The notes beneath the pieces are model-generated. The model ran no database searches. It saw only the letters and a program-made list of their open reading frames with translations, and was not told the DNA's origin. Positions 36,763 through 50,846 of a stretch of DNA of 64,000 nt are shown one piece after another (the stretch's first letter is position 1; the number at the start of each line of letters is the position of its first letter). Source of the DNA: an uncultured Roseburia sp. (GTDB lineage Bacteria > Bacillota > Clostridia > Lachnospirales > Lachnospiraceae); the NCBI GenBank assembly GCA_945787015.1, contig CALZGM010000002.1, forward strand, positions 1 through 64,000, written 5' to 3'. Position numbers and translations under genes: made by a program.

Positions 36763-36914
36763 AAATTTTTTTGACAAGACGGGCAAAGTAACATCTATTT
36801 GCCTATCGATATGGCATGTTTTGTGAGCAGAATGATTTTAAAGAGTGTATCGTTAAAAAGATTGTGTTTTAACATGGTAACAACTCCAATTGACAACAAA
36901 TAATAAAATACTTA
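36763..36914. other. AT-rich left edge of the accessory island
   Basis: No gene is seen. A TTGACA at about 36771 and a dyad GGCAAA(10 nt)TTTGCC at about 36782-36803 look like a promoter with an operator but precede no recognisable gene, which suggests a remnant. Confidence 0.35.
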
Positions 36915-36951
36915 CGGACAGGAGATTTGTGATATCTCCCATCCGTTTTTT
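36915..36951. terminator. Island stem-loop terminator, copy 1
   Basis: CGGACAGGAGAT (36915-36926) / ATCTCCCATCCG (36934-36945) followed by TTTTTT. It is one of five related stem-loops in the island (others at 38495, 39575, 42551 and 50738). Confidence 0.75.
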
Positions 36952-37010
36952 AATGTAGTAATTGAATGAAAACGTTTCTCTTCCTCATCATTGTAAAGTT
37001 CTATGTTTCC
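36930..37010 (-). pseudogene. 3' remnant of an agrC-like kinase gene
   Basis: About 80 bp that align with the last codons of the two intact agrC genes in the island, including the same terminator, the TTTTTTAATGT block and the CTCTTCCTC...AAAGTTC...ATGTTTCC blocks. The match stops at 37010 and is joined to promoter element copy 1 at 37031. The rest of the kinase and any agrA copy are deleted. Confidence 0.7.
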
Positions 37011-37030
37011 GGGATAATATTGAAAATATT

Positions 37031-37103
37031 ACCAAAAAGTGTAGAAAAATGTCGTTTCACGAAATACATATTGAAGTGTGATAGCGAATTGGGTTACTAT
37101 GAG
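37031..37103 (+). promoter_or_regulatory. Shared agr-type promoter element, copy 1
   Basis: ACCAAAAAGTGTAGAAAAAT (37031-37050) then GTCGTTTCACGA, -35 TTGAAG (37071-37076), 18-bp spacer, -10 TACTAT (37095-37100). The upstream box is laid out exactly as in copies 2 and 3. Presumed target of the island's LytTR regulator (inference). Confidence 0.7.
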
Positions 37104-37221
37104 TAAAACCATTGATGCTACCTACCAATATTTGTAAAGGAGAAAACTAATTGAGGCATTCCCACATTTAGAAGAAGAAATTCTAAACGCGAATGAAATA
37201 AATAATGCCCGCACAAGCAAA

Positions 37222-37713
37222 ATGAGCATGAGAAAAAATCTGAATGTGGTATATAGAGAAAGTAAATGGATAAGTGATGATGAATTGCTAGGAATTGCCT
37301 TTGATGAAAATGGAGTATATTCTGCATATGATTTACTAGTTGGAGAAGGAAGCAAGACTTGGATTGGTGGTACATCGGCTTCTGGAACAGGATATCGTAA
37401 TATATATGATGCTACATTGATGGTGTCGAATAGCTATTATTTATATGCGATTACAATATATCCAATTAGTTATTCTGTAGTTAATAATGGCTATGATTCC
37501 TTTATTGATACTGGAATTGCGACTTCTCCAATAATGCCATGTTTAACTGCATATCCGGTTCAGATGCAGGAAACAGCACAATCAGAAGCGTATGCTTGCT
37601 ATGATGCTAAAAATGTTTTTAAAATAGAACAATCGTCAGAGGTAAGTTTCCCAATAGAAATAAGAATATCAAATAATAATGTATATGTTTATTTGCTTGG
37701 CGTACAGATATAA
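37222..37713 (+). CDS. Hypothetical protein downstream of agr-type promoter (cargo 1)
   Basis: I do not recognise this protein. It has about 163 residues, is rich in Tyr, Ser and Asn, and has a beta-strand-like pattern (for example SASGTGYRNIYDATL). The start is uncertain: the frame is open from 37138, where AAAGGAG is followed by ATT rather than ATG at 37150, and ATG 37222 lacks a ribosome site. A 12-codon leader frame (MSKTIDATYQYL) begins at 37099 in the same frame and stops at 37137. No signal peptide is visible in the present frame, so the gene may have lost its 5' end. A lipoprotein gene follows at 8 bp. Confidence 0.5.
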   Translation: MSMRKNLNVVYRESKWISDDELLGIAFDENGVYSAYDLLVGEGSKTWIGGTSASGTGYRNIYDATLMVSNSYYLYAITIYPISYSVVNNGYDSFIDTGIATSPIMPCLTAYPVQMQETAQSEAYACYDAKNVFKIEQSSEVSFPIEIRISNNNVYVYLLGVQI

Positions 37714-37721
37714 GGGGTATT

Positions 37722-38423
37722 ATGAAGAAAATCATACTAGTAGTAGTAACATTTTTTGCTTGTTTGACTGCATGTGGTGGAACAAAAGAAAACTACGCAT
37801 TAGTTGAAACAGCATACGATAATCTAAGAAGTAAAGATGAAATATCATACGAAGTGCAATATACTTTAGGTCAAGAATCAGAAAAACAGATTTATGTAGT
37901 TAATCAACAAGGGGATGACTGGAGTTATGAACTGTATATTGGAACAGATATGCTTTTACAGGAACGTAAATACGAAAAAGGCAACCAATATGTTCGATAT
38001 AATGGTGGACAATGGCTGCAGGATTCAGTGGAATACAAGCTGTCTTTCCTTGATGAAATTTTAGTGGATTCTAGTCAAATAGAGCATGTTGTCGCTAATG
38101 ATAAGGATGTTACCGAGATTGTTATAACACTTAACCAAAAAGCACTTGATGAAATGCGTAATACAGCAATTCTTTTAGGCGAAGAAGCTATTAATAATCT
38201 GATAAATATGGGGGCGTCAGATGATGCAATTAATGCGCAAAAGGAACATAATCTGTTACTAGAGAGGACAACTTATCATTACGACGAGAGAAAATATTAT
38301 ATTGATGAGAACGGTGTACTGATAAAATATATGCGAACAGTGATGTTAGAGCAACCAAATATGGAAAACGAATTAGAAGAGGAACGCATCGAAATAATAA
38401 TTTCTGTTAACGCGTATGAATAA
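37722..38423 (+). CDS. Lipoprotein of unknown function
   Basis: A 233-residue secreted lipoprotein with signal peptide and lipobox LTACGG near residue 18. The mature part starts with a Tyr/Asp-rich stretch and contains SYEVQYTLGQESEK, resembling the two-sheet fold of LolA/LppX-like or DUF6612-like lipoproteins, but no firm family is assigned. It lies 8 bp after cargo 1, with GGGG before the ATG, and so is probably driven by the agr-type promoter copy 1. Confidence 0.7.
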   Translation: MKKIILVVVTFFACLTACGGTKENYALVETAYDNLRSKDEISYEVQYTLGQESEKQIYVVNQQGDDWSYELYIGTDMLLQERKYEKGNQYVRYNGGQWLQDSVEYKLSFLDEILVDSSQIEHVVANDKDVTEIVITLNQKALDEMRNTAILLGEEAINNLINMGASDDAINAQKEHNLLLERTTYHYDERKYYIDENGVLIKYMRTVMLEQPNMENELEEERIEIIISVNAYE

Positions 38424-38494
38424 ACATGGTAAGTATTTTATTATGACAGAGTATGATTTTTAGAGTTCTAATAGCCGAACAGAAAAACACTAGC

Positions 38495-38528
38495 GGACGG
38501 GAGATTTATGAAATTTCCTGTCCTTTTT
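38495..38528 (+). terminator. Island stem-loop terminator, copy 2
   Basis: GGACGGGAGATTT (38495-38507) / AAATTTCCTGTCC (38511-38523), 3-nt loop, then TTTTTC. It ends the lipoprotein transcript. Confidence 0.85.
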
Positions 38529-38531
38529 CGT

Positions 38532-38560
38532 TTGTAAAAAAATAGTTCTGATGTTATACT
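38532..38560 (+). promoter_or_regulatory. Predicted promoter of the intact island rpn gene
   Basis: TTGTAA (38532-38537), 17-bp spacer, TATACT (38555-38560). A leader of about 130 nt follows and holds a perfect 8-bp hairpin, ATTCCTGC / GCAGGAAT, at about 38585-38607. Confidence 0.6.
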
Positions 38561-38700
38561 GTTAGCACCATCCTTTTCATATTTGATTCCTGCATGGCGA
38601 GCAGGAATTATCTATAACATAGTCGACATGAGGAATATTTTACTGATCTGGGACGAATCGTTCAAATATCAATTATTACAATTCATAGGAGGAATAGTTA

Positions 38701-39567
38701 GTGGTAAATAGACAGTATAAAGACAGACTGTTCAAGCGAATTTTTCGGGATAAGAAGGATTTGTTGGAACTTTATAATGCGATGAATGATACAAACTATA
38801 GTAATCCAGAAGATATAGAAGTAAACACACTTGAGGACGTAGTATATATGGGAATGAAAAATGATGTTTCGTTTCTATTTACCGAAGTTTTGAACCTTTA
38901 TGAACATCAAAGCACGTTTAATCCCAATCTTCCGTTAAGGGGACTACTGTATTTTGCAAAATTATATCAAAAAATAATCGGACCAAGAAAAGATTTATAT
39001 AGTGAAAAACTCATTGAGTTGCCCTATCCGCAGTTTGTGGTATTTTATAATGGTACAAAAGAGGAACCGGAACGTCAGGTGTTGGAACTGAGTGCAGCTT
39101 TTCCGAAAGAGTATAGCAAAGAAAATGCAGCTTTGCAGTGCCGGGCGGTTGTATTGAATATTAATTTGGGCTATAATAAGAAAGTAATGGAGAAATGCAG
39201 GAAACTTAAGGAATATGCACAGTTTATAGCCATGATACGCGAGTATCTGAAGGAAATGGGTAATATCGAAGATGCAGTTGACCTAGCGATAGGTGAGTGT
39301 ATAAAGCAGGGGATTCTTGAGGATATTTTACGAGAGGACCGCGAGGAGGTGCGTTCTATGTTATTAACAGAATATGATGAACAGGCGCATATTAAGAATG
39401 AAAAAGAGATATCATATGAAGAAGGCAAAAAAAAGGGCGAAGATATGCTATCTATACTAATCCAACATTTACTAGCTGCCGGAAGAATGGACGATGTGAA
39501 CCGGGTGACAACAGATGCACAGTATCGCAGGGAATTATATAAAGAGTTCCAACTTATCGAACAGTAA
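38701..39567 (+). CDS. Rpn family PD-(D/E)XK nuclease / putative transposase (island, intact)
   Basis: A 288-residue full-length Rpn protein. The core is seen in DRLFKRIFRDKKDLLELYNAMN, the Asp in KNDVSFLF and the E-x-Q in LYEHQSTF. The start is GTG 38701 with AGGAGGA about 7 nt upstream. Within the gene, a perfect AGGAGGTG precedes an in-frame ATG at 39358. Two truncated copies of its 3' part lie at 50256 and 53539. It is convergent with agrC1 and shares its terminator. Rpn proteins of E. coli are toxic nucleases linked with recombination and phage defence; the role here is inferred. Confidence 0.87.
   Translation: MVNRQYKDRLFKRIFRDKKDLLELYNAMNDTNYSNPEDIEVNTLEDVVYMGMKNDVSFLFTEVLNLYEHQSTFNPNLPLRGLLYFAKLYQKIIGPRKDLYSEKLIELPYPQFVVFYNGTKEEPERQVLELSAAFPKEYSKENAALQCRAVVLNINLGYNKKVMEKCRKLKEYAQFIAMIREYLKEMGNIEDAVDLAIGECIKQGILEDILREDREEVRSMLLTEYDEQAHIKNEKEISYEEGKKKGEDMLSILIQHLLAAGRMDDVNRVTTDAQYRRELYKEFQLIEQ
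39344..39360 (+). promoter_or_regulatory. Internal ribosome site and start in island rpn
   Basis: AGGAGGTG (39344-39351), then ATG 39358-39360 in frame, 8 nt after GGAGG. It would give a 69-residue C-terminal product beginning MLLTEYDEQ. The same site is kept in the truncated copies at 50482 and 53838. Confidence 0.6.
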
Positions 39568-39574
39568 AACATTT

Positions 39575-39612
39575 ACGGGCGGGAGATTTAAGAAATTTCC
39601 CGTCCGTTTTTT
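39575..39612. terminator. Island stem-loop terminator, copy 3 (bidirectional)
   Basis: ACGGGCGGGAGATTT (39575-39589) / AAATTTCCCGTCCGT (39593-39607), then TTTTT. It lies between convergent rpn and agrC1, and contains the agrC1 stop codon. Confidence 0.88.
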
Positions 39613-40922
39613 AATGTGATAATCGTATGAAAACTCTTCTCTTCCTCGTCATAATAAAGTTCCATGTTTCCATTATATTTCGCGACAATCCGCTTAATAC
39701 TCTTTATGCCAAAGCCGTGTCGTGTGGCATCTTTCTTTGTTGAAACGAGTTTCCCGCCAGCTGTGGAAAAAGGATTTACACGACAGGAATTTACCATGGT
39801 TATAATGGTAAGATCTGTCTGTGGTTTTCGTAGGACATTTACCTCAATAAAGGAAGAAGTCTGCTTGGAAGCAGATTCTACAGCATTATCCAATAGATTG
39901 CAGAAGAGGGATGTCAAATCATTTTCTTCTATAAAGCTTACAGTATTGCTTCTGATATCTGTATGAAAAGAAATACCGCGTTCTCTGCAATCATTTTGAT
40001 AACGACAAAGGATTGCATTTAGGAATTCATTGTCACAGACGCGGGAAGCCGACTGCAAATCAGAAGAATTAACGAGCTGCTTGATATAGGAAGCAACTTT
40101 TTCCTTCTCACCCTGTTCATTTAGCAGTGCAATGGAATGCAGATGCTTTTTGATATCGTGAATCAGAATACTTTGTGATTCATCCTGCTTTAGCAGCATT
40201 TTATAATAGGAAACGGAGTCATATTCTTTTTGCAACTGAAGCTGCATTTCTGTAAAATCGCGGTTTTTTTCCCCAGAGTAGATGTAGATTGCCCATATCG
40301 TAACATTGGAAACCAACAAAAGGATGGAACTAATGGCGACCATTTTGTTTATATTAGATGGTAGAATGATGTTGTAGGAAATGGAGCCGAGTGTATGCAT
40401 AATCCATATGGAAATGAATGGAATGATTGTGAGCATCAGAAGTTCTTTTCCTGAATTTTGATTTTTTTCTTTTGTTCTTACAAAAAAACGTGAAATGATA
40501 AATGATATACAAAAATAAATTTGTTTACCAAAAACAGCTATAAATATTAGATTTTCGATATAGGAATCTGATGCATATAAGTTCAATGTGGGTTGCGAAT
40601 ATATTCCTGCAACTGCTAATTCACTAAATCCCATGATTGTGGTGAGAATTAAGGCATGAAAAAGAGCGGATAAGAGGTTTGTTTGATACAAGCTTTTTAT
40701 CAAAATTAAATTGATAATTAGAAATGCAGACAAATTTAATATAGCAATTTCAAACGAGGAAACAGCAAATAAAATACAATAAAGTCCAAAGATAAATATC
40801 CATTCAGCTATTTTAGAATATTTCGAAAGAAACACGGTAGAACAATACTGTTTTAAGATAAGGGCTTCTACTAAAAAATAATGATATAGCAAATAGTAAT
40901 ACTCATAAATAGACACTCCCAT
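39588..40922 (-). CDS. agrC: AgrC-like sensor histidine kinase 1
   Basis: A 444-residue kinase of the HPK10/AgrC type. The N-terminal half (about 1-215) has six or seven membrane helices that should bind the peptide signal. The C-terminal half has the phospho-accepting His in ILIHDIKKHLHS, the N box NLLDNAVESA and the G box HGFGIKSIKRIV. It follows agrA by 5 bp on the same strand, so the two are coupled. Its transmitter half is nearly identical to that of the second kinase at 42562, while the sensor halves differ widely. No strong ribosome site precedes ATG 40922, which fits coupling to agrA. Confidence 0.9.
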   Translation of the reverse strand: MGVSIYEYYYLLYHYFLVEALILKQYCSTVFLSKYSKIAEWIFIFGLYCILFAVSSFEIAILNLSAFLIINLILIKSLYQTNLLSALFHALILTTIMGFSELAVAGIYSQPTLNLYASDSYIENLIFIAVFGKQIYFCISFIISRFFVRTKEKNQNSGKELLMLTIIPFISIWIMHTLGSISYNIILPSNINKMVAISSILLLVSNVTIWAIYIYSGEKNRDFTEMQLQLQKEYDSVSYYKMLLKQDESQSILIHDIKKHLHSIALLNEQGEKEKVASYIKQLVNSSDLQSASRVCDNEFLNAILCRYQNDCRERGISFHTDIRSNTVSFIEENDLTSLFCNLLDNAVESASKQTSSFIEVNVLRKPQTDLTIITMVNSCRVNPFSTAGGKLVSTKKDATRHGFGIKSIKRIVAKYNGNMELYYDEEEKSFHTIITLKNGREIS

Positions 40923-40927
40923 TGAAA

Positions 40928-41635
40928 TTATTGCAGACTTTCTAAATATAATAAATAAGTCGCTTTGAACTGGCTAAATTTTCTTCGCGTTAGGTAGGCT
41001 TTAAACTGGCCTCGATAAAGCGAAATCAATGTGTGTGAAAAGTCTGTTACATGTTCTAAATTTACAATAAAACTTCTATGTGTCTGAAAAAAACAAGGCA
41101 TGGAAAGATGTTCTACCCAGTATTGCATGGTATGTGCCGATTCATAGTCAGCTTGGGTAGTGTGAATAATCACTTTTCTGCCTAGCGCTTCCACGCATAT
41201 AATGTTAGAAGTAGAAATAGAATAAACACCTTGCTTCGTTTCAATTGCAATTTTGGTATTTGAGGTATTATATAGCTGTAACGCATCTTTCATGTTCCGA
41301 AACAGGCGTTGCTTGTCAAGCGGTTTTGAAAGATAGCGAAAAACATGAAACCGCATGGCCTCATCTAAATATTCGGAAAAGGAAGTTACTATAAAAATGA
41401 TTACATTAGGATTACCTTTCTTTAGTTCTTTTCCGGTATAGATACCACTTACACCGGGCATTTCTATATCTAAAAAAACAATATCTTTTTTCCCAGAATC
41501 AGCAAGTAATTTTTCCCCACTATTATAAGAAACTATTTCAGGGCAGGTAAGTTTGTTTTTTGCAAAGTACTCCTGAAGATATTTTTCCAATTGTTCGTTC
41601 ATAAGACAGTCATCATCACAAATAAGAATCCGCAT
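40928..41635 (-). CDS. agrA: AgrA-like LytTR response regulator
   Basis: A 235-residue regulator: receiver domain (acidic pocket in LICDDD, phospho-Asp in IVFLDIEMPG, Lys in RYLSKPLDK) and a C-terminal LytTR DNA-binding domain (YSISTSNIICVEALGRKV, then FFQTHRSFIVNLEHV). It is the only LytTR regulator in the island and is presumed to serve both kinases. ATG 41635 has GAGGG 8 nt upstream; the longer frame starts with TTG and has no ribosome site. Confidence 0.92.
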   Translation of the reverse strand: MRILICDDDCLMNEQLEKYLQEYFAKNKLTCPEIVSYNSGEKLLADSGKKDIVFLDIEMPGVSGIYTGKELKKGNPNVIIFIVTSFSEYLDEAMRFHVFRYLSKPLDKQRLFRNMKDALQLYNTSNTKIAIETKQGVYSISTSNIICVEALGRKVIIHTTQADYESAHTMQYWVEHLSMPCFFQTHRSFIVNLEHVTDFSHTLISLYRGQFKAYLTRRKFSQFKATYLLYLESLQ

Positions 41636-41647
41636 ACAAAATTCCCT

Positions 41648-41761
41648 CAAATTAAGAAGTAGTTAAGTTATATTCTACTGGAATAAAAATAGGAAAGCAA
41701 TAAATACGTATGAAAAGACAGATTATGGTGCGTTTTGGTAAAAGAAAAGGCATATATCATA
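41648..41761 (-). promoter_or_regulatory. Duplicated agr regulatory block with agrA promoter (copy A)
   Basis: A 114-bp block, nearly identical to 43897-44010. It contains a promoter reading leftward: -35 TTGCTT (41700-41695) and -10 TAGAAT (41677-41672), 17-bp spacer. Here it drives agrA-agrC1; the other copy drives agrC2. Confidence 0.75.
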
Positions 41762-41832
41762 ACCAAAAAGTGCAAAAAAATGTCGTTTCACGACAAATGT
41801 ATTGAAAAGTAGAAAGAATGGGTTATTATGAG
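41762..41832 (+). promoter_or_regulatory. Shared agr-type promoter element, copy 2
   Basis: ACCAAAAAGTGCAAAAAAAT, then the dyad GTCGTTTCACGAC (41782-41794), -35 TTGAAA (41802-41807), 16-bp spacer, -10 TATTAT (41824-41829). It is divergent from the agrA promoter. The following ATGAGG...CCATTGATTCTAT is also shared with copy 3. Confidence 0.75.
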
Positions 41833-42139
41833 GATAGCCATTGATTCTATAAAAAATATAAATGTTAGTGGCTCATGGGCATGTATATCAAACACTTATT
41901 CTATGACATTTTCAAATAGAATAGTGAGTGTTAATGATGGACAATCAATATGGGCAAAAGATTTTATTAAATATCCATCATCAAATAATTTTTCATATGA
42001 TACAGGAAGGGGATATGTGCAATATTATCCTGCGTCATCGGATGGAGTTTCAGGTGCAAGGGCTTATTCAGAAGCAATAGGAACTATTGATGGGATGGGA
42101 GGATCATATACTATATTTATAACAGTAAATGTTCCATAG
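41828..42139 (+). CDS. Hypothetical small protein (cargo 2), possibly 5'-truncated
   Basis: I do not recognise this protein of 103 residues. It is rich in Ser, Tyr, Gly and aromatic residues (SGSWACISNTYSMTF at the start), like a secreted beta-sheet protein, but it has no signal peptide. The only usable in-frame start, ATG 41828, overlaps the predicted -10 box. In copy 3 the same leader is followed by a ribosome site and signal peptide, which are missing here. Either the gene is a truncated remnant or the leader itself is translated as its N-terminus. Confidence 0.45.
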   Translation: MRIAIDSIKNINVSGSWACISNTYSMTFSNRIVSVNDGQSIWAKDFIKYPSSNNFSYDTGRGYVQYYPASSDGVSGARAYSEAIGTIDGMGGSYTIFITVNVP

Positions 42140-42176
42140 ATTAGTAATCAATATTAATATTAGAGGTGAAAGCATT

Positions 42177-42512
42177 ATGAAATTATTAAATATTAAACAA
42201 AAAAAATTTTTCCTTATGGTAATAATTTTATTTGTAATTGTTCTGTTAGATTTGGAGCATACACTAGTTAGGCGTATATTGTATACTGTAGCAGGTGTTG
42301 TTTTGTCAGCTAAAACCAGAACGGAAAAAGTTACAATGATGGAGTATGCTTCATTAATAGGTTTAGTATATATAGTTATTTCATTAGTGTTTCCATCTAT
42401 AATGCCGGTTAAGAGTTTTGTGTATAAAATATTAAAATTGGGAGGATTATATGGCATTCTACATTTTATTATGGGAGAGTTGTTGGGATATATATTTATT
42501 CCAAGGGATTAA
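42177..42512 (+). CDS. Small membrane protein of unknown function
   Basis: A 111-residue protein with about three hydrophobic helices (FFLMVIILFVIVLLDLE, ASLIGLVYIVISLVF and a C-terminal one). It starts at ATG 42177, with TAGAGGTG about 8 nt upstream; the longer frame overlaps cargo 2. It follows cargo 2 by 37 bp and may be its partner, for example an immunity-like membrane protein, though nothing in the sequence proves this. Confidence 0.6.
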   Translation: MKLLNIKQKKFFLMVIILFVIVLLDLEHTLVRRILYTVAGVVLSAKTRTEKVTMMEYASLIGLVYIVISLVFPSIMPVKSFVYKILKLGGLYGILHFIMGELLGYIFIPRD

Positions 42513-42550
42513 GTGAAATATAATTTCAGAATAATGTAGTATTTATTAGA

Positions 42551-42585
42551 GGACGGGAGATTTATATGATTTCCCGTCCGTTTAT
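42551..42585. terminator. Island stem-loop terminator, copy 4 (bidirectional)
   Basis: GGACGGGA (42551-42558) / TCCCGTCC (42572-42579), then GTTTATT. It lies between the small membrane protein and the convergent agrC2, whose stop codon it contains. Confidence 0.8.
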
Positions 42586-43881
42586 TAATGTGATAATTGT
42601 ATGAAAACTCTTCTCTTCCTCGTCATAATAAAGTTCCATGTTTCCACTATATTTTGCAACGATTCGCTTAATACTCTTTATGCCAAAGCCATGTCTTGTC
42701 GCATCTTTCTTTGTTGAAACGAGTTTCCTGCCAGTTGTTGGAAAAGGATTCACACGACAGGAATTTACCATGGTTATGATGGTGAGATCTGTCTGTGGTT
42801 TCCGTAGAACGTTTAACTCAATAAAGGAAGAAGTCTGTTTAGAAGCAGATTCGACAGCATTATCCAACAAATTGCAGAAGAGGGATGTTAAATCATTTTC
42901 TTCGATAAAGTTTACTGTGTTGCTTCTGATATCTGTATGAAAAGAAATACCGCGTTCTCTGCAATCATTTTGATAACGACAAAGGATTGCATTTAGGAAT
43001 TCATTGTCACAGACGCGGGAAGCCGACTGCAAATCAGAAGAATTAACGAGCTGCTTGATATAGGAAGCAACTTTTTCCTTCTCACCCTGTTCATTTAGCA
43101 GTGCAATGGAATGCAGATGCTTTTTGATATCGTGAATCAGAATACTTTGTGATTCATCCTGCTTTAGCAGCATTTTATAATAGGAAACGGAGTCATATTC
43201 TTTTTGCAACTGAAGCTGCATTTCTGTAAAATCGCGGTTCTTTTCCCCAGAGTAGATGTAGATTGCCCATATCGTAAGGTTTGCAAATAATAAAAGAGTG
43301 GCACTTAGAGAGACCATATGATTAAGGATTTCCGGAAGCGTAACATAATAACAAATAGAGATTAGTGTAATTAGTACAAAAATAGAAATAAGTGGAATAA
43401 CCGTCAATAATAAAATTTCTTTGCCGGGAGCATGACAGGGATCTTTTGATTTTACAAAGAACCGAGAAATAATGAATAAAATCCAAAAGTACAACTGTTT
43501 GGCAAATACAAGTAATATGAGCAGACTTCTAAGATAGGTGTCAGACTCATAAAGATTTCTTGCCAGGTGCGTAAAAACTCCTGAGACAATTAGTTCGCTT
43601 AATCCCATGACGATTGTAACTATTGTTGTATGAAAAAGAGCAGATTGCCAACCGGTTTCATAGATGCAGAGGATAAAAATAAAATTGATAATGAGAAAAG
43701 AAACCATATTTAGTGGGAAATTTTCTAAACAGGAAATCCCAAAAAGAATCGTATAAAGAGTAAGAACCACACACCATTGAATGATTTTTGAATGTTTCGC
43801 AGTAAATAGTGAGGAACAGTATTGTACAATAATGAGTGCTTCAATAAAATATGCAATTATGTAGCATAGTGTAATTCCCAT
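42562..43881 (-). CDS. agrC: AgrC-like sensor histidine kinase 2
   Basis: About 439 residues with the same layout as kinase 1: multi-helix membrane sensor, His in ILIHDIKKHLHS, N box NLLDNAVESA and G box HGFGIKSIKRIV. From about the sequence IYSGEKNRDF to the end it is almost identical to kinase 1 at both DNA and protein level, whereas the sensor halves are only moderately similar. No agrA copy precedes it; it is driven directly by the duplicated 114-bp promoter block. ATG 43881 has GGAG about 9 nt upstream; the longer frame starts with TTG. Confidence 0.9.
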   Translation of the reverse strand: MGITLCYIIAYFIEALIIVQYCSSLFTAKHSKIIQWCVVLTLYTILFGISCLENFPLNMVSFLIINFIFILCIYETGWQSALFHTTIVTIVMGLSELIVSGVFTHLARNLYESDTYLRSLLILLVFAKQLYFWILFIISRFFVKSKDPCHAPGKEILLLTVIPLISIFVLITLISICYYVTLPEILNHMVSLSATLLLFANLTIWAIYIYSGEKNRDFTEMQLQLQKEYDSVSYYKMLLKQDESQSILIHDIKKHLHSIALLNEQGEKEKVASYIKQLVNSSDLQSASRVCDNEFLNAILCRYQNDCRERGISFHTDIRSNTVNFIEENDLTSLFCNLLDNAVESASKQTSSFIELNVLRKPQTDLTIITMVNSCRVNPFPTTGRKLVSTKKDATRHGFGIKSIKRIVAKYSGNMELYYDEEEKSFHTIITLINGREII

Positions 43882-43896
43882 ATCACAATCTCCAAT

Positions 43897-44010
43897 CAAA
43901 TTAAGATGTAGATAAGTTATATTCTACTGGAATAAAAATAGGAAAGCAATGAATATGAACGAAAAGACAGATTATGGTGCGTTTTGGTAAAAGAAAAGGC
44001 ATATATCATA
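43897..44010 (-). promoter_or_regulatory. Duplicated agr regulatory block with agrC2 promoter (copy B)
   Basis: A 114-bp block nearly identical to 41648-41761 and of the same length. -35 TTGCTT (43949-43944), -10 TAGAAT (43926-43921), 17-bp spacer. The identity ends abruptly at 44010, marking a duplication junction. Confidence 0.75.
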
Positions 44011-44028
44011 GAGATATATACCTTAAAA

Positions 44029-44385
44029 TTATGTGGAATGGTTCTGATTCCACTTGGTTTGATTTCGTTCCACTAAAAGTTCAATAAAATCACGAGCAAG
44101 TTTTACATCTTCCTTGCTACAAAGACGTAGGCTTGCCAGTATATCTTGAGAAATATCATCTGTATGCATATTGCCTAAAAGCAAATAATCCGGTGTGATT
44201 TTTAGTATGTCACATATGTGTAATAGTATTTCCAAACTAGGCTTTTCTCGACCATTTTCAATAGATGACATATGATTATTAGAAATATCAAGCTGTTCAG
44301 CTAGGACATATTGTTTCATGCCAAGTTCTTTGCGTCTCATCTGTATTCTGTTTCCGATTACATTGTATTGAATATCCAAATACAT
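44029..44385 (-). CDS. XRE-family helix-turn-helix regulator
   Basis: A 118-residue protein with an N-terminal Cro/C1-type HTH (GNRIQMRRKELGMKQYVLAEQLDISNN, then MSSIENGREKPSLEILLHI) and a short helical C-terminus (LRLCSKEDVKLARDFIELLVE). ATG 44385 with AAGGA is better placed than the 16-codon longer version. It lies between agrC2 and the divergent agrDB promoter and could repress either; this is inference from position. Confidence 0.85.
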   Translation of the reverse strand: MYLDIQYNVIGNRIQMRRKELGMKQYVLAEQLDISNNHMSSIENGREKPSLEILLHICDILKITPDYLLLGNMHTDDISQDILASLRLCSKEDVKLARDFIELLVERNQTKWNQNHST

Positions 44386-44542
44386 CACATCCTTTTTTAT
44401 AATAATAACAAGCATAAGATGATAAGCAAACAAGAATTAGCAGAATAATTCTGTATTAAATTATTAAATGAAAGAAAAAATGTGTATAAATAATAAAATG
44501 TTCTGCCATACAATTGATTTTTCTTTTGCTATGGAGAAAAAA

Positions 44543-44611
44543 ACCAAAATCAAAAGAAACAATGTCGTTAACGCATATGAGCTCGAAAAAAAACATACTT
44601 TCAAGTATTAT
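44543..44611 (+). promoter_or_regulatory. agrDB promoter, degenerate copy 4 of the shared element
   Basis: ACCAAAATCAAAAGAAACAA then GTCGTTAACG (44564-44573), -35 TCGAAA (44583-44588), 17-bp spacer, -10 TATTAT (44606-44611). The order and spacing match copies 1-3 within one base, although the right half of the dyad is lost. This suggests that agrDB is under the same regulator (positive feedback). Confidence 0.55.
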
Positions 44612-44658
44612 ACAGATGTAGTTTCAATGGTTATTTTTAACGAAAGGAGGAAGAAGCT

Positions 44659-44811
44659 ATGGAAAAGACAACAATATCTAAGAGCTCTGCTAAAGCGGTT
44701 GCATCCACATTAGAGAGGATGTTACATATTGAAGCGAACACTAGCTCATGCATATTGCTACATCAGCCCAAAGCACCAAAAGAATTAAAACAGTTCAGGA
44801 GAGATAAGTAA
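44659..44811 (+). CDS. agrD: AgrD-type cyclic autoinducer peptide precursor
   Basis: A 50-residue precursor. An N-terminal amphipathic leader (about 1-27) is followed by NTSSCILLH, then the conserved acidic/charged tail QPKAPKELKQFRR. As in S. aureus AgrD, the Cys is four residues before the AgrB cleavage site, so the mature signal should be a thiolactone ring C-I-L-L-H with a short N-terminal tail. AAAGGAGG lies 8 nt before the ATG. Its stop overlaps the agrB start as TAATG. Confidence 0.88.
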   Translation: MEKTTISKSSAKAVASTLERMLHIEANTSSCILLHQPKAPKELKQFRRDK

Positions 44812-45419
44812 TGGAACAATTGGCAGGAGTTATTGTAAGCTGGCTCATCAGGCAGGAGGCAATTGAAGAAGAAAGCAGGGAATTGTATGAATATGCGGTT
44901 CACAGTTTCTTTTTAGGAATTACACCACTTATATATGCGGTAATCATCGGTGGATTAATGGGAGAAGTAAGGACAAGTATAGTGCTTATTCTTCCGTTTA
45001 TGATTATCCGAAAATTCAGCGGTGGTTTTCATGCAAAAAGAGAGTGGGTATGTTTGGTGAGCTCCTGCCTTTTGTTATTTGGTTGTATTTTTACTGCGTC
45101 ACATATAGAGCACAATGTTTTATTTGATGCAATTGTTATATGGGCTGTTGTAAGTCTAATTGTGTGCAGTCCCATTGATTCGGAAAACCGCAGGCTAGAG
45201 CCGGATGAAAAGAAATTGAGGAAGAAAGAAACGACGATTATTTCATTATTTTTCTACATAGTGTATATTGGCTTGCTGCTTTTGGGAAAACAAAGCTATG
45301 CGGTTTGTATAGGGACGGGAATGATTCTAACAGCTGGCTTACAAGTACCTTGTATTATAAAAAATATAGCCAAAAAGTGCAGAAAAATGTCGTTTCACGA
45401 CACACGTATTGAAAAGTAA
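44811..45419 (+). CDS. agrB: AgrB-type autoinducer-processing membrane peptidase
   Basis: A 202-residue membrane protein. The catalytic His and Cys of AgrB are visible as GGFHAKREWVC, seven residues apart as in S. aureus (H77, C84). It cleaves the AgrD tail and helps form the thiolactone. Its last 17 or so codons (KNIAKKCRKMSFHDTRIEK) are encoded by the same DNA that forms promoter element copy 3, so coding and regulatory sequence overlap. Confidence 0.93.
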   Translation: MEQLAGVIVSWLIRQEAIEEESRELYEYAVHSFFLGITPLIYAVIIGGLMGEVRTSIVLILPFMIIRKFSGGFHAKREWVCLVSSCLLLFGCIFTASHIEHNVLFDAIVIWAVVSLIVCSPIDSENRRLEPDEKKLRKKETTIISLFFYIVYIGLLLLGKQSYAVCIGTGMILTAGLQVPCIIKNIAKKCRKMSFHDTRIEK

Positions 45420-45440
45420 AAGGAATGGGTTAACATGAGG
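45370..45440 (+). promoter_or_regulatory. Shared agr-type promoter element, copy 3, inside agrB
   Basis: CCAAAAAGTGCAGAAAAAT (45370-45388), dyad GTCGTTTCACGAC (45389-45401), -35 TTGAAA (45409-45414), 16-bp spacer, -10 TAACAT (45431-45436). The upstream box lies in the last codons of agrB. Confidence 0.75.
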
Positions 45441-45485
45441 GTAACCATTGATTCTATGAAAAATTATTTAAGAGAGGAAATTATT

Positions 45486-45920
45486 ATGAAGAAAAAACTA
45501 GGTCTATTTATATGCTGTTTATTAATGGCAACAAGCTTATGTGGAGAGACAGTAAGAGTATTTGCAAATAACTATAAAGATACAACATTTTCAATTGAAT
45601 ATTATGCGGATGGATCGGATTATCCGATTGAACCAAGGGAAAAACAAGATAATACTGCGTCTTATATTAAAAGTTATGCCTCAAATCCGGCACTTTTAGT
45701 ATGTGTAGCGGGTACAAATAATGCAAATTCATATACTGCTATTGACCCTAATAGATGTTCAAGTATTATCAGTGTCCCATCTGGCTCATACCGCTATATT
45801 TCTAACACCGTATATGGTAATTATTCTTATGCGTATCTTGTAATTGGAACAGAACAGACAAATCAAACATATACGATTAGCGGAAAATGGAGTCCGGATA
45901 ATATAAGCAATCGTTATTAG
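45486..45920 (+). CDS. Small secreted protein downstream of agr-type promoter (cargo 3)
   Basis: A 144-residue protein with a clear Sec signal peptide (MKKKLGLFICCLLMATSLC, probable cleavage near VFA-NN). The mature part of about 115 residues is rich in Tyr, Ser, Asn and Thr (for example SGSYRYISNTVYGNYSYAY). No family is recognised. AGAGGA at about 45472 lies 7-8 nt before the ATG. A longer frame from ATG 45435 would add the leader MRVTIDSMKNYLREEII but would put the start in the predicted -10 region. It is the one cargo gene with an intact ribosome site and signal peptide, so it is the best candidate for a quorum-controlled secreted effector. Confidence 0.75.
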   Translation: MKKKLGLFICCLLMATSLCGETVRVFANNYKDTTFSIEYYADGSDYPIEPREKQDNTASYIKSYASNPALLVCVAGTNNANSYTAIDPNRCSSIISVPSGSYRYISNTVYGNYSYAYLVIGTEQTNQTYTISGKWSPDNISNRY

Positions 45921-45963
45921 GCAATAGAGAATAGAAATATCAATAAACAAATATAACATGATA

Positions 45964-46002
45964 GAGCCCCATTCTTTGATACTATGTCAGAGAGTGGGGT
46001 TC
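45964..46002 (+). terminator. Stem-loop after cargo 3, possible terminator
   Basis: AGCCCCATTCTTTGA (from 45965) pairs imperfectly with TCAGAGAGTGGGGTT (to 46001). It has no immediate T run. Confidence 0.5.
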
Positions 46003-46100: not shown

Positions 46101-46808
46101 ATGAAGAAAAAGATCTATTACATATTGCTTTTGGTAGTAACCATACTATTGATGGGCTGTCAGGAGAAGAATTCTGTTAGTGAAGAGCAAGGAAATAAGA
46201 GTAATCATATAGAAACAGAGGCGGCAACAGAACCAGATACACAGAGCGAAGAAGAGACATTGAAATATACAATAGAACTCGCCACACATGGCTGTAAGGT
46301 AGTGCAAGAAGGCGAAACTATGTCATTGAATAGAATGAACATTACAGTAAATGATGTAACTGTCACGAGAAAAAAGGGCGATTGGTATGATTTTTTAAGC
46401 CAGAAGTTGGATGAGAATGGCTATTTATTTGAGAACAGAGCATATGTGATTGTGAATGTTACGATAGAGCAGGCGGAAGAGGTGGATTTTTGGCTAAATT
46501 CCATACGGCTTGCTTATTTTTCGGAGGATGATTTGAGAATCGGATCCATCGAGTTGGATGGAACAAGTTTATTTAAAGAAGATGATGGAAATCCGGATGT
46601 ATTTCAGGGATTGATTAAAAAAGGGGAAACGCTGACTACGGATTTGATTTATGTGATAAAAGAGGAGGAAGAGGGAGCTGATGCACATTTCCTTCTGGAA
46701 TATAACCCGACAGGATGCGGTTTGGATTATGTAGAACCGGATAAATATGGAATGATATATTTAAAATCACTGGAGGATGTGTGGAATGAAATCCCTATGG
46801 AAGAATGA
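46101..46808 (+). CDS. Lipoprotein, DUF4352-like
   Basis: A 235-residue lipoprotein with lipobox LLMGC near residue 20 and a Glu/Thr-rich linker. The domain after about residue 60 (SLNRMNITVNDVTVTRKKG, then AYVIVNVTIEQAEE) resembles the immunoglobulin-like DUF4352 fold found on many Firmicute surface lipoproteins. It overlaps the following permease gene, so it belongs to the same operon. Confidence 0.7.
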   Translation: MKKKIYYILLLVVTILLMGCQEKNSVSEEQGNKSNHIETEAATEPDTQSEEETLKYTIELATHGCKVVQEGETMSLNRMNITVNDVTVTRKKGDWYDFLSQKLDENGYLFENRAYVIVNVTIEQAEEVDFWLNSIRLAYFSEDDLRIGSIELDGTSLFKEDDGNPDVFQGLIKKGETLTTDLIYVIKEEEEGADAHFLLEYNPTGCGLDYVEPDKYGMIYLKSLEDVWNEIPMEE

Positions 46809-47574
46809 GTTAAATAGGATGCTTGGTGAAAAGGATTTTAGAATAACAATGGTCCTTGGATGCGGGGTGGCTGTCTGGCATTTCGTGCAGCATGTGTATC
46901 ACGCTGAAATGTTTGCATTAGAGGTTCCGGAAAATGTATATGTATGCTGGATGGGCGCTAGTGCGTATCGGATGCAGTCTTACTGGTATTATATGATTTT
47001 TCCGCTATTAGCGGTGCTGCCCTATGTGGGAAGCTGGTATGAGGATTATCATTCCGGTTATGTAAAAAGTGTGCTGCTAAGGTGTGATAGAAGAAGCTAT
47101 TTTATGGTAAAGGGTGTGGTGATGTTTTTATCCGGCGGACTTGGCGTAACGGTACCGCTTTTATTAAATTTTTTGTTGACTGCGACAAGACGACCATTGC
47201 TGTATCCGGACCCGTTTATTGCAATTGGACCTCAGTCCTATTGCATCGGGAGCGAGCTTTATTATACACATCCGATGCTGTATACATTACTGTATCTAAT
47301 GTTTGATTTTGTGGCAGGTGGGCTGATTGCAATAGGGGCAATGCTTTTATGTACCCGTGTGAATTATAAGTTTGTGGCGTTGATTCTTCCATATGGAATT
47401 TTCTATTTGCTGAATTGCCTTGGCACTGTTTTAGGAACAAATATTTTTGCACCAAATTTTTTCCTGATACCGGGAATAGGGATTGAAAATGTGTGTTCCC
47501 TTGTAATGGTAACTTTATTTGGAGCCTTGATACTGCTGACCTACGTGAGAAGAGGAAGTGTTTATGAGGGTTAA
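46786..47574 (+). CDS. Putative ABC-2-like membrane protein 1
   Basis: A 262-residue polytopic membrane protein with about six hydrophobic helices and no clear named family. GGAGG at 46772-46776 supports ATG 46786. It is the first of three consecutive membrane-protein genes that overlap one another and precede an ATPase gene, so it is probably a permease subunit of an ABC exporter. Confidence 0.65.
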   Translation: MKSLWKNELNRMLGEKDFRITMVLGCGVAVWHFVQHVYHAEMFALEVPENVYVCWMGASAYRMQSYWYYMIFPLLAVLPYVGSWYEDYHSGYVKSVLLRCDRRSYFMVKGVVMFLSGGLGVTVPLLLNFLLTATRRPLLYPDPFIAIGPQSYCIGSELYYTHPMLYTLLYLMFDFVAGGLIAIGAMLLCTRVNYKFVALILPYGIFYLLNCLGTVLGTNIFAPNFFLIPGIGIENVCSLVMVTLFGALILLTYVRRGSVYEG

Positions 47575-48295
47575 ACCGTGGCTGCTGATGGCATTGATGC
47601 TGTTTGAAGGATTCGGGCTTGCTGCCTATCTGCTGTTACTTGGTGAGCAGAGTCCAGTGAATTTGTCCGTTTTTTGCAGTGCAGATGTGCAGGTGATTGC
47701 GAGTGGAAAAAATGTGTACAGTCTGTTTCTGGTGGGAACGGTCTTATTTGGAACAGCATTCTTTGCCGGTGAGAACAGTGGTGGAATGTCTGTAGTGCTG
47801 TGGCAGAGCAAGAGGCGGCTACTGGAACGTCAGGGAATGTTTTGCGCGGTATGGAGTCTGCTCGTTGCCGCGATTGCAGTACTTGTACCGCTGATTTTGG
47901 CAGATACATGGGGAAAAACAGAAATTAACTGGGGAAGCAGCTCCAGTTATTTTGCAATTATAAATCATGCGGTGTTGCCTAAAGTACAGTTGTGGGAGGT
48001 AGTATTGGTAAACTTTTTGACACAGTGGGCAAGAAATATGATTTTTTCTGCTATGGTGCTGTTAAGCTACTGGTGGAATGGTAATTTGCTGTATGGAATT
48101 CTGGCAGCAACAGGTATCTGTTTCGTGGAAATGAAAATGCCGCAAATAGGGATGCTACTAGGTCTCGTAAAAGCGGATTATGAATTTTGGCTGTCTGATG
48201 TAAAGAAACTGTTTGCGGTGGCAGCAGGCATTGGCTGGCTTTGCGTCACAGGTGGAGCACTGTATTATTTACAAAAAGGAAAAGAATTTATATGA
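47564..48295 (+). CDS. Putative ABC-2-like membrane protein 2
   Basis: A 243-residue protein with about six hydrophobic helices. ATG 47564 has GAGGA 7 nt upstream and overlaps the previous stop by 11 bp. The layout fits an ABC-2 permease subunit; substrate unknown. Confidence 0.65.
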   Translation: MRVKPWLLMALMLFEGFGLAAYLLLLGEQSPVNLSVFCSADVQVIASGKNVYSLFLVGTVLFGTAFFAGENSGGMSVVLWQSKRRLLERQGMFCAVWSLLVAAIAVLVPLILADTWGKTEINWGSSSSYFAIINHAVLPKVQLWEVVLVNFLTQWARNMIFSAMVLLSYWWNGNLLYGILAATGICFVEMKMPQIGMLLGLVKADYEFWLSDVKKLFAVAAGIGWLCVTGGALYYLQKGKEFI

Positions 48296-49056
48296 AATGG
48301 AAGCGATATTTACTTGCTGCGGTACTGATGCTGATTCCGGGCATTTTGGAGATTTTGCAAGCATTTCGAGGTTTTGAAGGACAGTTTTTTGAGTTACCAT
48401 CCTACGGAAATTTTCTTGTGAAATGGCTGCAGGGTATGCCGCTTGTAACGGGCTCCAATGAAAGACAGTTAAAGATTCCGATTGAGTGGTTTGTGTTACA
48501 TGGGGGATATTTGATGGTAATTGTAGGCTGCTGTACACAGAGCCTTACCCAAAACAGCAGTTATGAATTGCTTTGTAGCGGAAAAAGAGTCCGCTGGTGG
48601 AGTGCAAAATGCAGGTGGCTTGTGAAAAATACGATTATGTATTATGGAATGTTTTATCTGTTGCTGCTTACTTTTTCAGCAGTTACAGGCGATGTCAGTT
48701 TAAGCGCTTCCTCTGAAATCTGGATGGGCGGTCTGACTTATGAGAAGGATATGGAACGCATGATTATGACATTTGTACTTCCGGTGTTAGGTAGTACGTG
48801 TATAGGAATGATGGAGTTTTTTTTCGAGCTGGTATTTTCACCCGCAATTGCATTGTTTTTGTGCAGCGGCTACCTGCTGGCTGGGATTTTTTCAAATCAT
48901 GCGTTGTTTGTGGGAAATCTTACAATGCTTTACCGCAATGCGTTTTATATTGGTGAGAAGGGCATTGGTACAGGTGCGGGAATGATAGCGAGTATTGGAG
49001 GAATGATTCTTTTTTATCTTCTCGGGAGAGAGAAAATGAAAAGATGGGAAGGATGA
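48292..49056 (+). CDS. Putative ABC-2-like membrane protein 3
   Basis: A 254-residue membrane protein beginning MKWKRYLLAAVLMLIPG, with about six helices. ATG 48292 overlaps the previous stop as ATGA; an upstream in-frame ATG lies within the previous gene. Three permease-like proteins for one ATPase is unusual and recalls lantibiotic-immunity (LanFEG) type exporters, but no immunity signature is clear. Confidence 0.65.
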   Translation: MKWKRYLLAAVLMLIPGILEILQAFRGFEGQFFELPSYGNFLVKWLQGMPLVTGSNERQLKIPIEWFVLHGGYLMVIVGCCTQSLTQNSSYELLCSGKRVRWWSAKCRWLVKNTIMYYGMFYLLLLTFSAVTGDVSLSASSEIWMGGLTYEKDMERMIMTFVLPVLGSTCIGMMEFFFELVFSPAIALFLCSGYLLAGIFSNHALFVGNLTMLYRNAFYIGEKGIGTGAGMIASIGGMILFYLLGREKMKRWEG

Positions 49057-49060
49057 GGCA

Positions 49061-49702
49061 ATGTATCTAAAATTAAATCATATCACTAAAGTGATAAAAG
49101 GAAATGTTTTGCTGGATGGGGTTGATTTGGAGCTTTCCGGCGGCAGGATTTATGGACTACAGGGGAAAAACGGTTCCGGAAAAACGCTGTTATTGAAGGC
49201 GATGTGCGGACTACTGATACCAAGTGAGGGAACCGTAGAAGTGGATGGAGTAGTTTTGGGAAAGGAGATGGATTTCCCGAAAGATGTCGGTGTGTTAATT
49301 GAAAATCCGGGCTTTATTGCAGGCTATACAGCTTTTAAAAACTTGAAGGTGCTGGCTGATATCCGAAAAAAGATTTCGAACGAAGAAATTTTGTCAATAT
49401 TGGATGAAGTTGGCCTGGGAGACTGTGGAAAAAAGAAATACAGAAACTTCTCGCTGGGCATGAAGCAGAAACTGGGAATTGCAGCAGCGCTTATGGAGAA
49501 TCCGAAATTGATTTTGCTGGATGAGCCAACAAATGCACTGGATGAAAAAAGTGTGAGGGATTTGCGGAGCATTTTAGAGAGAAGAAGAGAAGAAGGCGCG
49601 TTAATTGTCGTAGCCTCACATGATAAAGAGGAGCTGGAGCTTTTAGCAGATCAGATTTTTGTGATAGAAAAGGGGAAGATTATTGAAACGCGGAAACAGT
49701 AG
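49061..49702 (+). CDS. ABC transporter ATP-binding protein
   Basis: A 213-residue ATPase with Walker A (GKNGSGKTLLLKAM), signature FSLGMKQKLGIAA, Walker B (LILLDEPTNALD) and an H-loop SHD. The short length fits exporter ATPases of the bacitracin/lantibiotic-resistance group. It is 4 bp from the third permease and is followed by an overlapping membrane protein gene. Confidence 0.88.
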   Translation: MYLKLNHITKVIKGNVLLDGVDLELSGGRIYGLQGKNGSGKTLLLKAMCGLLIPSEGTVEVDGVVLGKEMDFPKDVGVLIENPGFIAGYTAFKNLKVLADIRKKISNEEILSILDEVGLGDCGKKKYRNFSLGMKQKLGIAAALMENPKLILLDEPTNALDEKSVRDLRSILERRREEGALIVVASHDKEELELLADQIFVIEKGKIIETRKQ

Positions 49703-50255: not shown

Positions 50256-50729
50256 AAAGAAAATGCAGCTTTGCAGTGTCGGGCGGTTGTATTGAATATT
50301 AATTTAGGCTATAATAAGAACGTAATGCAGAAATGCAGGAAACTTAAGGAATATGCACAGTTTATAGCTATGATTCGGGAGTATCTGGAGGAAACGGGTA
50401 ATATTGAGGACGCAGTTGACCGGACGATAGATGAGTGCATAAAGCAGGGGATTCTTGAGGACATTTTGCGAGAGGACCGCGAGGAGGTGCGTTCTATGTT
50501 ATTAACGGAATATGATGAACAGGTCCATATAAAGAACGAGAAAGAAATATCATATGAAGAAGGTGAGCGGGCTGGTATAAAAACCGGAATAAAAAAGGGC
50601 GAAGATATGCTATCTACACTAATCCAATATTTGCTAGCTGCCGGAAGAATAGATGATGTGAACCGGGTGACAACGGATGCACAGTATCGCAGGGAATTAT
50701 ATAAAGAGTTCCAACTTATCGAACAATAA
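50256..50729 (+). pseudogene. Truncated rpn copy (3' part only), copy 2
   Basis: From AAAGAAAATGCAGC the DNA aligns closely with 39117-39567 of the intact rpn gene, so the first 140 or so codons, including the nuclease Asp and E-x-Q residues, are absent. The frame stays open for about 152 codons to the same C-terminus. A small insertion (GERAGIKTGI) extends it. The internal AGGAGGTG (50482-50489) and ATG 50496 are kept and could make a 77-residue protein. Confidence 0.8.
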
Positions 50730-50737
50730 AACACTTA

Positions 50738-50773
50738 CAGACGGGAGAGTTAAGAAATTTCCCGTCTGTTTTT
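50738..50773. terminator. Island stem-loop terminator, copy 5
   Basis: CAGACGGGA (50738-50746) / TCCCGTCTG (50760-50768), then TTTTT. It is followed to about 50792 by a remnant (TTTTATGTAATAATCATATGG) matching the last codons of agrC, so the whole rpn-end/terminator/agrC-end junction was copied. Confidence 0.8.
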
Positions 50774-50794
50774 ATGTAATAATCATATGGAAGC

Positions 50795-50846
50795 TTGACA
50801 AAAGCGTCTAATGGCGTTAGACTAATATTGTCTAATAGCATTAGAC
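50795..50846 (+). promoter_or_regulatory. Promoter with two BlaI-type operators
   Basis: TTGACA (50795-50800) with a probable -10 at TAGACT (17-bp spacer). Two dyads, GTCTAATGGCGTTAGAC (50806-50822) and GTCTAATAGCATTAGAC (50830-50846, perfect), are spaced 24 bp centre to centre and cover the promoter. This is how a BlaI-family repressor would autoregulate its operon. Confidence 0.8.

Follow-up and report, generated by a model that had tools for sequence, protein, structure and literature searches.

The agr system of Staphylococcus is laid out as AgrBDCA, with a cyclic-peptide precursor (AgrD), AgrB, a GHKL receptor kinase (AgrC) and a LytTR response regulator (AgrA). Family models match all of these components, including an AgrD gene adjoining agrB, in an island at 36.9-50.8 kb of a 64,000-nucleotide stretch of DNA from an uncultured Roseburia sp. 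(contig CALZGM010000002.1), here called the window (G000:C2:1-64000; the genome has 3.3 Mb in 59 contigs). The island differs from staphylococcal agr in its linked XRE gene, its tandem cassettes and its two receptors with one AgrA. Moreover, a promoter is predicted to drive an adjacent, swappable secreted protein and likely immunity genes. We consider it likely that the island consists of agr-controlled bacteriocin-like/immunity cassettes, of which copy 3 is a complete producer and copies 1 and 2 are decayed older cassettes.

In lantibiotic immunity, a lipoprotein (LanI) and an ABC transporter (LanFEG) are encoded beside a secreted antibacterial. Lipoprotein and ABC genes stand beside a secreted protein here too, a resemblance of gene order alone. 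The blp locus of Streptococcus pneumoniae is a peptide-controlled bacteriocin/immunity region of variable content, with 'cheater' strains (PMC4739721). The Roseburia island differs from it in its Agr-type cyclic peptide, in Sec-secreted proteins of ~95-175 residues and in its lipoprotein/ABC genes. For the gallocin loci of the S. bovis/S. equinus complex, the opening of the abstract describes high synteny with highly variable structural bacteriocin genes (PMC7417737), as is found below. Gallocins are two-component bacteriocins of another genus, and that opening does not mention an agr-type signal. No description of agr-linked bacteriocin-like cassettes of Lachnospiraceae was found in the open-licence literature searched, by titles and abstract starts. 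Agr, peptide-controlled bacteriocins and cheater strains are known kinds; the apparently co-evolving leaders described below are the boldest point.

Architecture of the Island

Copies of a single cassette type stand in tandem in the island, with sharp boundaries. In the repeat search, the terminator with the agrC tail recurs at 36899-37010, 39560-39671 and 42534-42645, the latter two being 81% and 75% identical to the first. A leftward block recurs at 41636-41761 and 43885-44010 (91% identity), and a rightward promoter at 37015-37084, 41759-41857 and 45366-45464 (89% between the last two). The threefold layout of terminator, agrC tail, leftward block and rightward promoter, put forward in the original prediction, is thus confirmed. 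The whole genome holds no promoter match at E<=0.001 beyond these three, and the terminator matches five places (36904, 38476, 39545, 42551 and 50707), all inside the island. The kinase genes do end in the same stem-loop, as had been claimed, but this stem-loop is not restricted to them, because copies also follow lipoprotein 1 (38476) and the 3' fragment of a second Rpn-like gene (50.27-50.73 kb; copy at 50707). The array therefore probably ends at the latter, where 50271-50795 (plus strand) holds this fragment, the fifth copy of the terminator and a short piece (a few bp) of an agrC tail.

Copy 1 had been described as an agrC tail joined to promoter and cargo. The terminator stem-loop and the final ~80-100 bp of agrC (36899-37010, minus strand; in frame at 36912-37028) do precede an AgrA-type promoter (37029-37117, plus strand, profile score 56.7 bits), but cargo 1 is only a remnant. 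Copy 2 has a leftward promoter block for agrA and agrC1 (41636-41761, minus strand) and an AgrA-type promoter (41759-41850, plus strand, 73.8 bits) that lies 124 bp from agrA, with no XRE-agrDB between. Copy 3 comprises the agrC2 terminator (42532-42584, minus strand), its own leftward block (43885-44010, minus strand) and an AgrA-type promoter (45365-45457, plus strand, 71.4 bits) that begins within the 3' end of agrB. This promoter overlaps the final agrB codons, and the corresponding frames of copies 1 and 2 still encode KKC(R/K)KMSFH.

The repeat and terminator searches also located an additional terminator after lipoprotein 1 (38476-38528, plus strand) and one common to agrC1 and a convergent gene (39558-39610). 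This convergent gene (38701-39567, plus strand) and the 3' fragment at 50271-50729 are presumably Rpn-like; the former has no Pfam match above cut-off. Both precede an island terminator and may have mediated tandem duplication. Just past the island, at 50876-53472, lies what we take to be a BlaI/MecI-like repressor and BlaR1-like membrane peptidase pair.

Signalling Genes and the Complete Copy

The genes for the receptor kinase AgrC1 (39588-40922, minus strand; HATPase_c_5, 2.8e-22) and for AgrA (40928-41635, minus strand; LytTR, 1.7e-16; Response_reg, 4.7e-16) belong to copy 2. Copy 3 has a second receptor kinase gene, agrC2 (42562-43881, minus strand, by family match), with a differing sensor half and without its own agrA; among the open reading frames of the island no second agrA was seen, giving two kinases and one regulator. 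The kinase halves of the two genes share 98-100% nucleotide identity in six successive 50-nt windows and 88-98% in the following seven. The sensor halves share ~56-76% per window, and the two sensors are ~50% identical. Such near-identical kinase and diverged sensor halves form a pattern as after gene conversion.

Upstream of the promoter of copy 3 are an XRE-family regulator, a usual cassette member (44029-44385, minus strand; HTH_3, 3.9e-11), agrD (44659-44811, plus strand; TIGR04223, 3.6e-9, above cut-off) and agrB (44811-45419, plus strand; PF04647, 2.6e-38). The precursor reads ANTSS-CILLH|QPKAP, in which the ring is presumably the CILLH preceding QPKAP. Cargo 3 (45486-45920, plus strand) is an intact secreted protein, its signal peptide being judged, like all others here, by eye and a simple script. 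Its only family match is DUF2712 (PF10916, 2.2e-6); it does not match PF09683 or TIGR01653, so it is not assigned to the lactococcin 972 family. No paper on DUF2712 was found in the open-licence literature searched. Next come lipoprotein 3 (46101-46808, plus strand), which is DUF4352-like (4.6e-5; 24.1 bits, below the cut-off of 25.9) and likely an immunity protein, and three permease-like membrane genes (46792-49056, plus strand: 46792-47574, 47564-48295 and 48292-49056). The latter have no Pfam match and are assigned to an ABC transporter by their position beside an ATPase (49061-49702, plus strand; ABC_tran, 2.5e-30), likely that of an immunity transporter.

A Conserved Promoter with Exchanged Cargo

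The promoter was followed into relatives, where L-numbers denote fetched loci and G-numbers genomes. BLASTN is too weak across the genus: with the promoter as query, only its own three copies rose above noise. A profile model built from ten copies was used instead. The genus set held 62 genomes, the family set 299 (about one per genus, our own included) and the named-record set 80 AgrB-bearing loci, two of which (Roseburia inulinivorans DSM 16841 and R. faecis M72) coincide with genus genomes.

In all seven close AgrB relatives in the genus, the element lies at or shortly past the agrB stop codon. In the six with room, a small secreted protein comes next, its frame being interrupted in L037/L146. 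Cargo frames broken near their start, beside A-rich runs (L146 after 10665; L098 at 14866-15118), could reflect phase variation or sequencing error. The profile search of the genus set gave 14 strong sites in 9 genomes, separated from the rest by a gap from 37.9 to 21.6 bits; ten of them are training sites and not independent, and four are new. Agr genes lie within 6 kb of 13 of the 14, and the last is ~10 kb away in the same island. At L098 5364-5450 (G008:C1:2740363), a promoter copy whose nearest agrA is ~10 kb off is followed directly by a lipoprotein and ABC genes, no secreted protein intervening. Among the named-record loci, 34 of the 80 have a match at E<=1e-4 (36 sites, 29 at the 3' end of agrB), six of these 34 being training loci. 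In L128, L149 and L165, a site of the promoter model also stands upstream of agrD. The consensus from 43 sites, AATGACCAAAAA-n6-AAAAATGTCGTTTCGTGCA-n7-TTGAAA-n16-nATAAT-n5-TTGTCATTGATTTCA, has two spaced conserved boxes ahead of the -35 and -10 boxes, and we infer that AgrA binds there. By eye, an AgrA-like box is also seen, on the opposite strand, in the agrA leader block of the window (41636-41761), L203, L204 and L207, which suggests autoregulation of agrA-agrC.

The family scan yielded 21 sites at E<=1e-5 in 13 genomes; at least seven of the sites were in the training set. An agrA, agrB or agrC relative lies within 6 kb of 18 of them, one (G232:C86) being of a distant agr type. The other three score low (27.7-32.4 bits), and the 10.7 and 15 kb fetched for them contain no agr gene. 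Broad occurrence at genes unrelated to agr, which would have spoken against the cassette model, was thus not seen. Two of the weak sites are in L211 (6788-7729, G181:C11; 10.7 kb fetched); one precedes a Cys-rich secreted protein that resembles the L156 cargo, and agrB of G181 is on another contig. At L209 10996-11073 (G232:C10:145995), a second AgrA-type site 4.7 kb past agrB precedes a gene for a non-secreted protein of 613-618 residues, TIR-like by eye.

Cargos differ between the promoter loci, with a lipoprotein and an ABC transporter usually next. The 26 secreted cargos picked by hand fall into 19 clusters at E<=0.01. The proposal of one agr-linked promoter adjoining many unrelated small secreted cargos therefore holds in relatives. 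The L134 cargo matches lactococcin_972 (7.4e-6) and stands with a membrane protein (TIGR01654, 8.7e-49) and an ABC ATPase (TIGR03608, 4.4e-70), all three below curated cut-offs. This places a candidate member of the lactococcin 972 family (TIGR01653/01654/03608), whose secreted bacteriocins come with an integral membrane protein and an ABC ATPase, in the cargo slot; cargo 3 and the other scanned cargos do not match it. The cargo of L138 shows no evident signal peptide and is of a peptidoglycan-binding, phage-lysozyme type; most scanned cargos have no family match. A C-terminal G-x-[WYF] motif in 10 of the 26, several otherwise dissimilar, hints at a common fold. Peptide ring and cargo are shuffled among loci: the ring CAIMY is common to L113, L114 and L134, whose downstream genes differ, and L129 and L141 have cargos 87.5% identical under the unlike rings CCIIY and CAIAY.

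Copies 1 and 2 and Cassettes Lacking agrB

The three cargos of the window have no tblastn match to one another at E<=0.01, in line with the dissimilarity first proposed. It had also been supposed that they work side by side under one signal. This is not supported by cargos 1 and 2, which are truncated at their 5' ends, lack a start codon and do not begin with a signal peptide. In the cargo 1 frame (37138-37713, plus strand), the ribosome-binding site is not followed by a start codon; an in-frame ATG, GTG or TTG comes no earlier than 37222, ~70 nt beyond this site. No relative was found in the other 298 of the 299 family genomes, and the sister genome G048 retains just two pieces of cargo 1, ~20 middle residues and the last ~37. 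Lipoprotein 1 (37722-38423, plus strand), a possible immunity protein, is intact and has an intact relative in G048 (94% amino acid identity) near the same flanking gene. Nonsynonymous (dN) and synonymous (dS) divergence are 0.023 and 0.129 (dN/dS ~0.18), against 0.030 and 0.513 for the flanking gpmB-like gene. Lipoprotein 1 is conserved, yet it looks recently exchanged. In L199 (G048:C25:1-9000), the same chromosomal place, an apparently broken ATPase gene, which we take to be of the AAA type, stands where the agr copies are, followed by the cargo 1 remnant, lipoprotein 1 and an Rpn-like gene.

Cargo 2 (41861-42139, plus strand) starts at the promoter; its first in-frame ATG (41828) falls within the -10 box, with 75 nt to the second. 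It matches part of the C-terminal half of a 224-residue secreted protein of G107 (E 1.8e-4) and, more strongly, a short frame in G123 (E 5.1e-12). In neither genome do the fetched stretches contain a promoter match, and these two relatives thus provide no intact cargo 2 downstream of the promoter; a further match, of 46 residues, is in L169 (E 0.005). A small membrane protein follows (42177-42512, plus strand), without a family match; it has an open frame and is a possible immunity gene.

The original prediction held that copy 3 had gained XRE, agrD and agrB. In relatives, XRE is found upstream at 24 of the 33 agrD-bearing sites (the second site of L115 excluded), and XRE-agrD-agrB ahead of the cargo promoter is therefore the usual state. 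Copies 1 and 2 are thus best read as losses. L202 retains XRE, but of AgrB only the final 32 aligned residues; in L205 an agrD tail and an internally deleted agrB are left, with no toxin; both are partial deletions. L206 keeps agrD and lacks agrB. In L203, L204, L207 and window copy 2, agrA stands 105-139 bp from the promoter site. Given these varied remnants, loss must have occurred in several different ways.

Loss of agrB recurs together with loss of the toxin. An intact Sec-secreted cargo is present at 22 of 30 sites with agrB, against 1 of 10 with agrA but without intact agrB (Fisher p=7e-4); a lenient count gives 25/30 against 2/10 (p=6e-4). The classes were assigned by hand for 40 of the 51 non-redundant sites, L137 being counted as agrB-bearing although its agrB is on the far side of agrC-agrA. 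The eleven sites left out are L140 and L132 (no room), the second sites of L115, L209 and L098, L173, window copy 1, L208, L211 (twice) and L213. Six of the ten agrB-less sites lead directly to a lipoprotein, with ABC genes next in L202-L205 and the lipoprotein alone seen in L207 and L101. Of the other four, window copy 2, L212 and L098 have a toxin that is truncated or interrupted, and L206 has an intact one.

By gene content, receptor, promoter and likely immunity genes are kept and signal and toxin lost in L202, L203, L204, L205 and L207; of the agr genes, L101 has just a fragment of agrA, at its contig end. Window copy 2 fits in part, with its truncated toxin, a putative immunity gene and a complete agrDB next door. 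L205 resembles a producer, L142, in both lipoprotein and AgrC sensor (88% identical each), while in L202 the sensor matches L113 (91%) but the lipoprotein matches L127 (51%). For the copy 2 sensor, the closest outside match is only 36%. Pneumococcal blp cheaters do not export the signal, keep receptor and immunity and respond to a competitor's peptide (PMC4739721). The agrB-less cassettes look like them in gene content, a functional likeness and not membership; here agrD/agrB is lost, there the exporter.

Complementary Leaders of agrD and Cargo

A conserved stretch past the cargo -10 box recurs as its reverse complement past the agrD -10 box. In copy 3, an element of the agrD leader (44619-44633, plus strand, placed by reading the sequence) is complementary to one of the cargo leader (45442-45456, plus strand), for which its own partner ranks 1 of 31. 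By eye, ACCATTGA or GCCATTGA is present as a core in each of the three window copies and matches the one agrD leader. The two leaders co-vary between loci (31 loci, permutation p ~1e-4). Scored by their best ungapped complement, the two leaders of a locus average 11.48. Permuted pairs average 9.46, with 10.71 as the highest of 10,000 permutations, shuffled leaders 7.14 and leaders compared in direct orientation 7.48. Duplex energies are -19.66 within loci, -15.61 in permuted pairs (p=5e-5) and -11.82 in shuffled ones. An alignment-based count over 30 loci gave 19 two-sided changes against 7.2 expected (p=2e-4), in the register that fits the same data best. Both sides changed together in some lineages, namely the window (TAACCATTGA), L164 (TCATCAACTTC), L117, L121 and L143. 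The relatedness of the loci is only partly controlled in these statistics. In only 5 of the 31 loci does the own partner rank first, and in 14 it is in the top three; one motif is common to many loci. Against the co-variation, L156, L138, L136, L140, L148 and L115 have no special within-locus match (ranks 23-28 of 31). The match in L148 (score 15) is one of ribosome-binding sites, the 14-nt match in L124 includes a self-complementary core, and the agrD leader of L205 is a remnant.

Two explanations are about equally likely. Tentatively, and at somewhat less than even odds in our view, toxin and signal mRNAs may have co-evolving complementary 5' ends, so that the initial ~15-20 nt of the toxin transcript could pair with the agrD leader immediately ahead of the ribosome-binding site of agrD. 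With a probability close to even, the element past both -10 boxes would instead be a DNA operator in opposite orientation, for example for the XRE protein. Its position just past the -10 box in both promoters and the presence of XRE in most cassettes are consistent with an operator. The mismatch counts do not favour RNA either (G-U to A-C, 11 to 6 within loci and 335 to 133 across loci) and do not separate RNA from DNA. However, L124 and L206 retain the complement although no XRE match is found in their fetched loci, and the element is generally not palindromic. An XRE operator in the form of the palindrome TGnnATnnATnnCA is unsupported: it occurs in 7 of 30 rows and in none of 36 XRE-agrD intergenic regions (shuffled mean 0.45). 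If the pairing is real, synthesis of the toxin would act back on that of the signal, or toxin expression would be gated by the agrD transcript; the control would pass to every new cargo, since the element is part of the promoter module. No paper joining agrD, antisense, leader and Lachnospiraceae was found in the open-licence literature searched.

Interpretation of the Island

In the full cassette, agrC-agrA and XRE read leftward and agrD-agrB rightward, with the AgrA-type promoter at the 3' end of agrB followed by genes for a Sec-secreted bacteriocin-like protein, a lipoprotein and an ABC transporter. AgrC would sense the cyclic peptide made from agrD, and AgrA would then fire the cargo promoter, probably also its own and that of agrD. 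The cell would release the secreted protein, which may kill competitors, while turning on its own protection. Copy 3 would be the complete producer and borrow agrA from copy 2. Copies 1 and 2 would be earlier cassettes, since displaced, from which agrD/agrB and the beginning of the toxin gene are gone. Immunity may still come from lipoprotein 1 and from the membrane protein of copy 2, and AgrC1, with its different sensor, could report a neighbour's peptide, a form of eavesdropping.

Several observations weigh against this reading. Only one cargo, that of L134, is tied to a known bacteriocin family, below the curated cut-off, and no scanned lipoprotein or permease matches a family above cut-off. 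Eight of the 30 agrB-bearing sites have no intact secreted toxin, and L206 has an intact one without agrB. An agrB-less cassette does not equal a signal-blind cell, because G008 and the genome of the window have a second, complete agrDB. The cargo 2 match to a full-length secreted protein is modest, and cargos 1 and 2 could be mere decaying duplicates. For lipoprotein 1, the low dS relative to gpmB suggests recent transfer, which weakens the argument from selection. In a rival view, tandem duplication left copies 1 and 2 as mere debris, in which deletions between repeats took the agr genes and cargo starts and nothing is under selection. The truncated cargos and the lone agrC tail fit this, and five terminator copies invite recombination. 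We nevertheless regard it as rather unlikely: both lipoprotein 1 and the membrane gene of copy 2 still have open frames, the dN/dS of the former is low, and agrB-less cassettes recur with lipoprotein and ABC genes (L202-L205) or with the lipoprotein alone seen (L207 and L101).

That the cargos are secreted envelope or host-interaction proteins exchanged under agr, and not antibacterial, with lipoprotein and ABC genes serving unrelated export or stress functions, seems improbable. The absence of a DUF2712 paper from the literature searched and of family matches for most scanned cargos leaves room for it, but the lactococcin-972-type cargo of L134 with its own membrane protein and ABC ATPase, the peptidoglycan hydrolase of L138 and the high turnover of cargos beside lipoprotein and ABC genes argue against it. 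The original picture, a gain of XRE-agrD-agrB by copy 3 and parallel expression of three different cargos under a single peptide signal, has very little chance of being right; it also did not include the bacteriocin/immunity character, the cassettes without agrB or the complementary leaders. It would account for the clean junction of leftward block and promoter in copy 2, but the frequency of XRE at agrD-bearing sites, the partial deletions in L202 and L205 and the missing starts and signal peptides of cargos 1 and 2 all speak against it.

The reading as agr-controlled bacteriocin-like/immunity cassettes points to a set of such cassettes in gut Lachnospiraceae with fast cargo exchange, from whose context DUF2712 gains a plausible role. 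Cassettes resembling immune listeners are recurrent among them, and a co-evolving element links the signal and toxin leaders. Since sensor, ring and immunity gene can be matched by sequence, peptide-matched immunity and eavesdropping become testable in commensals.

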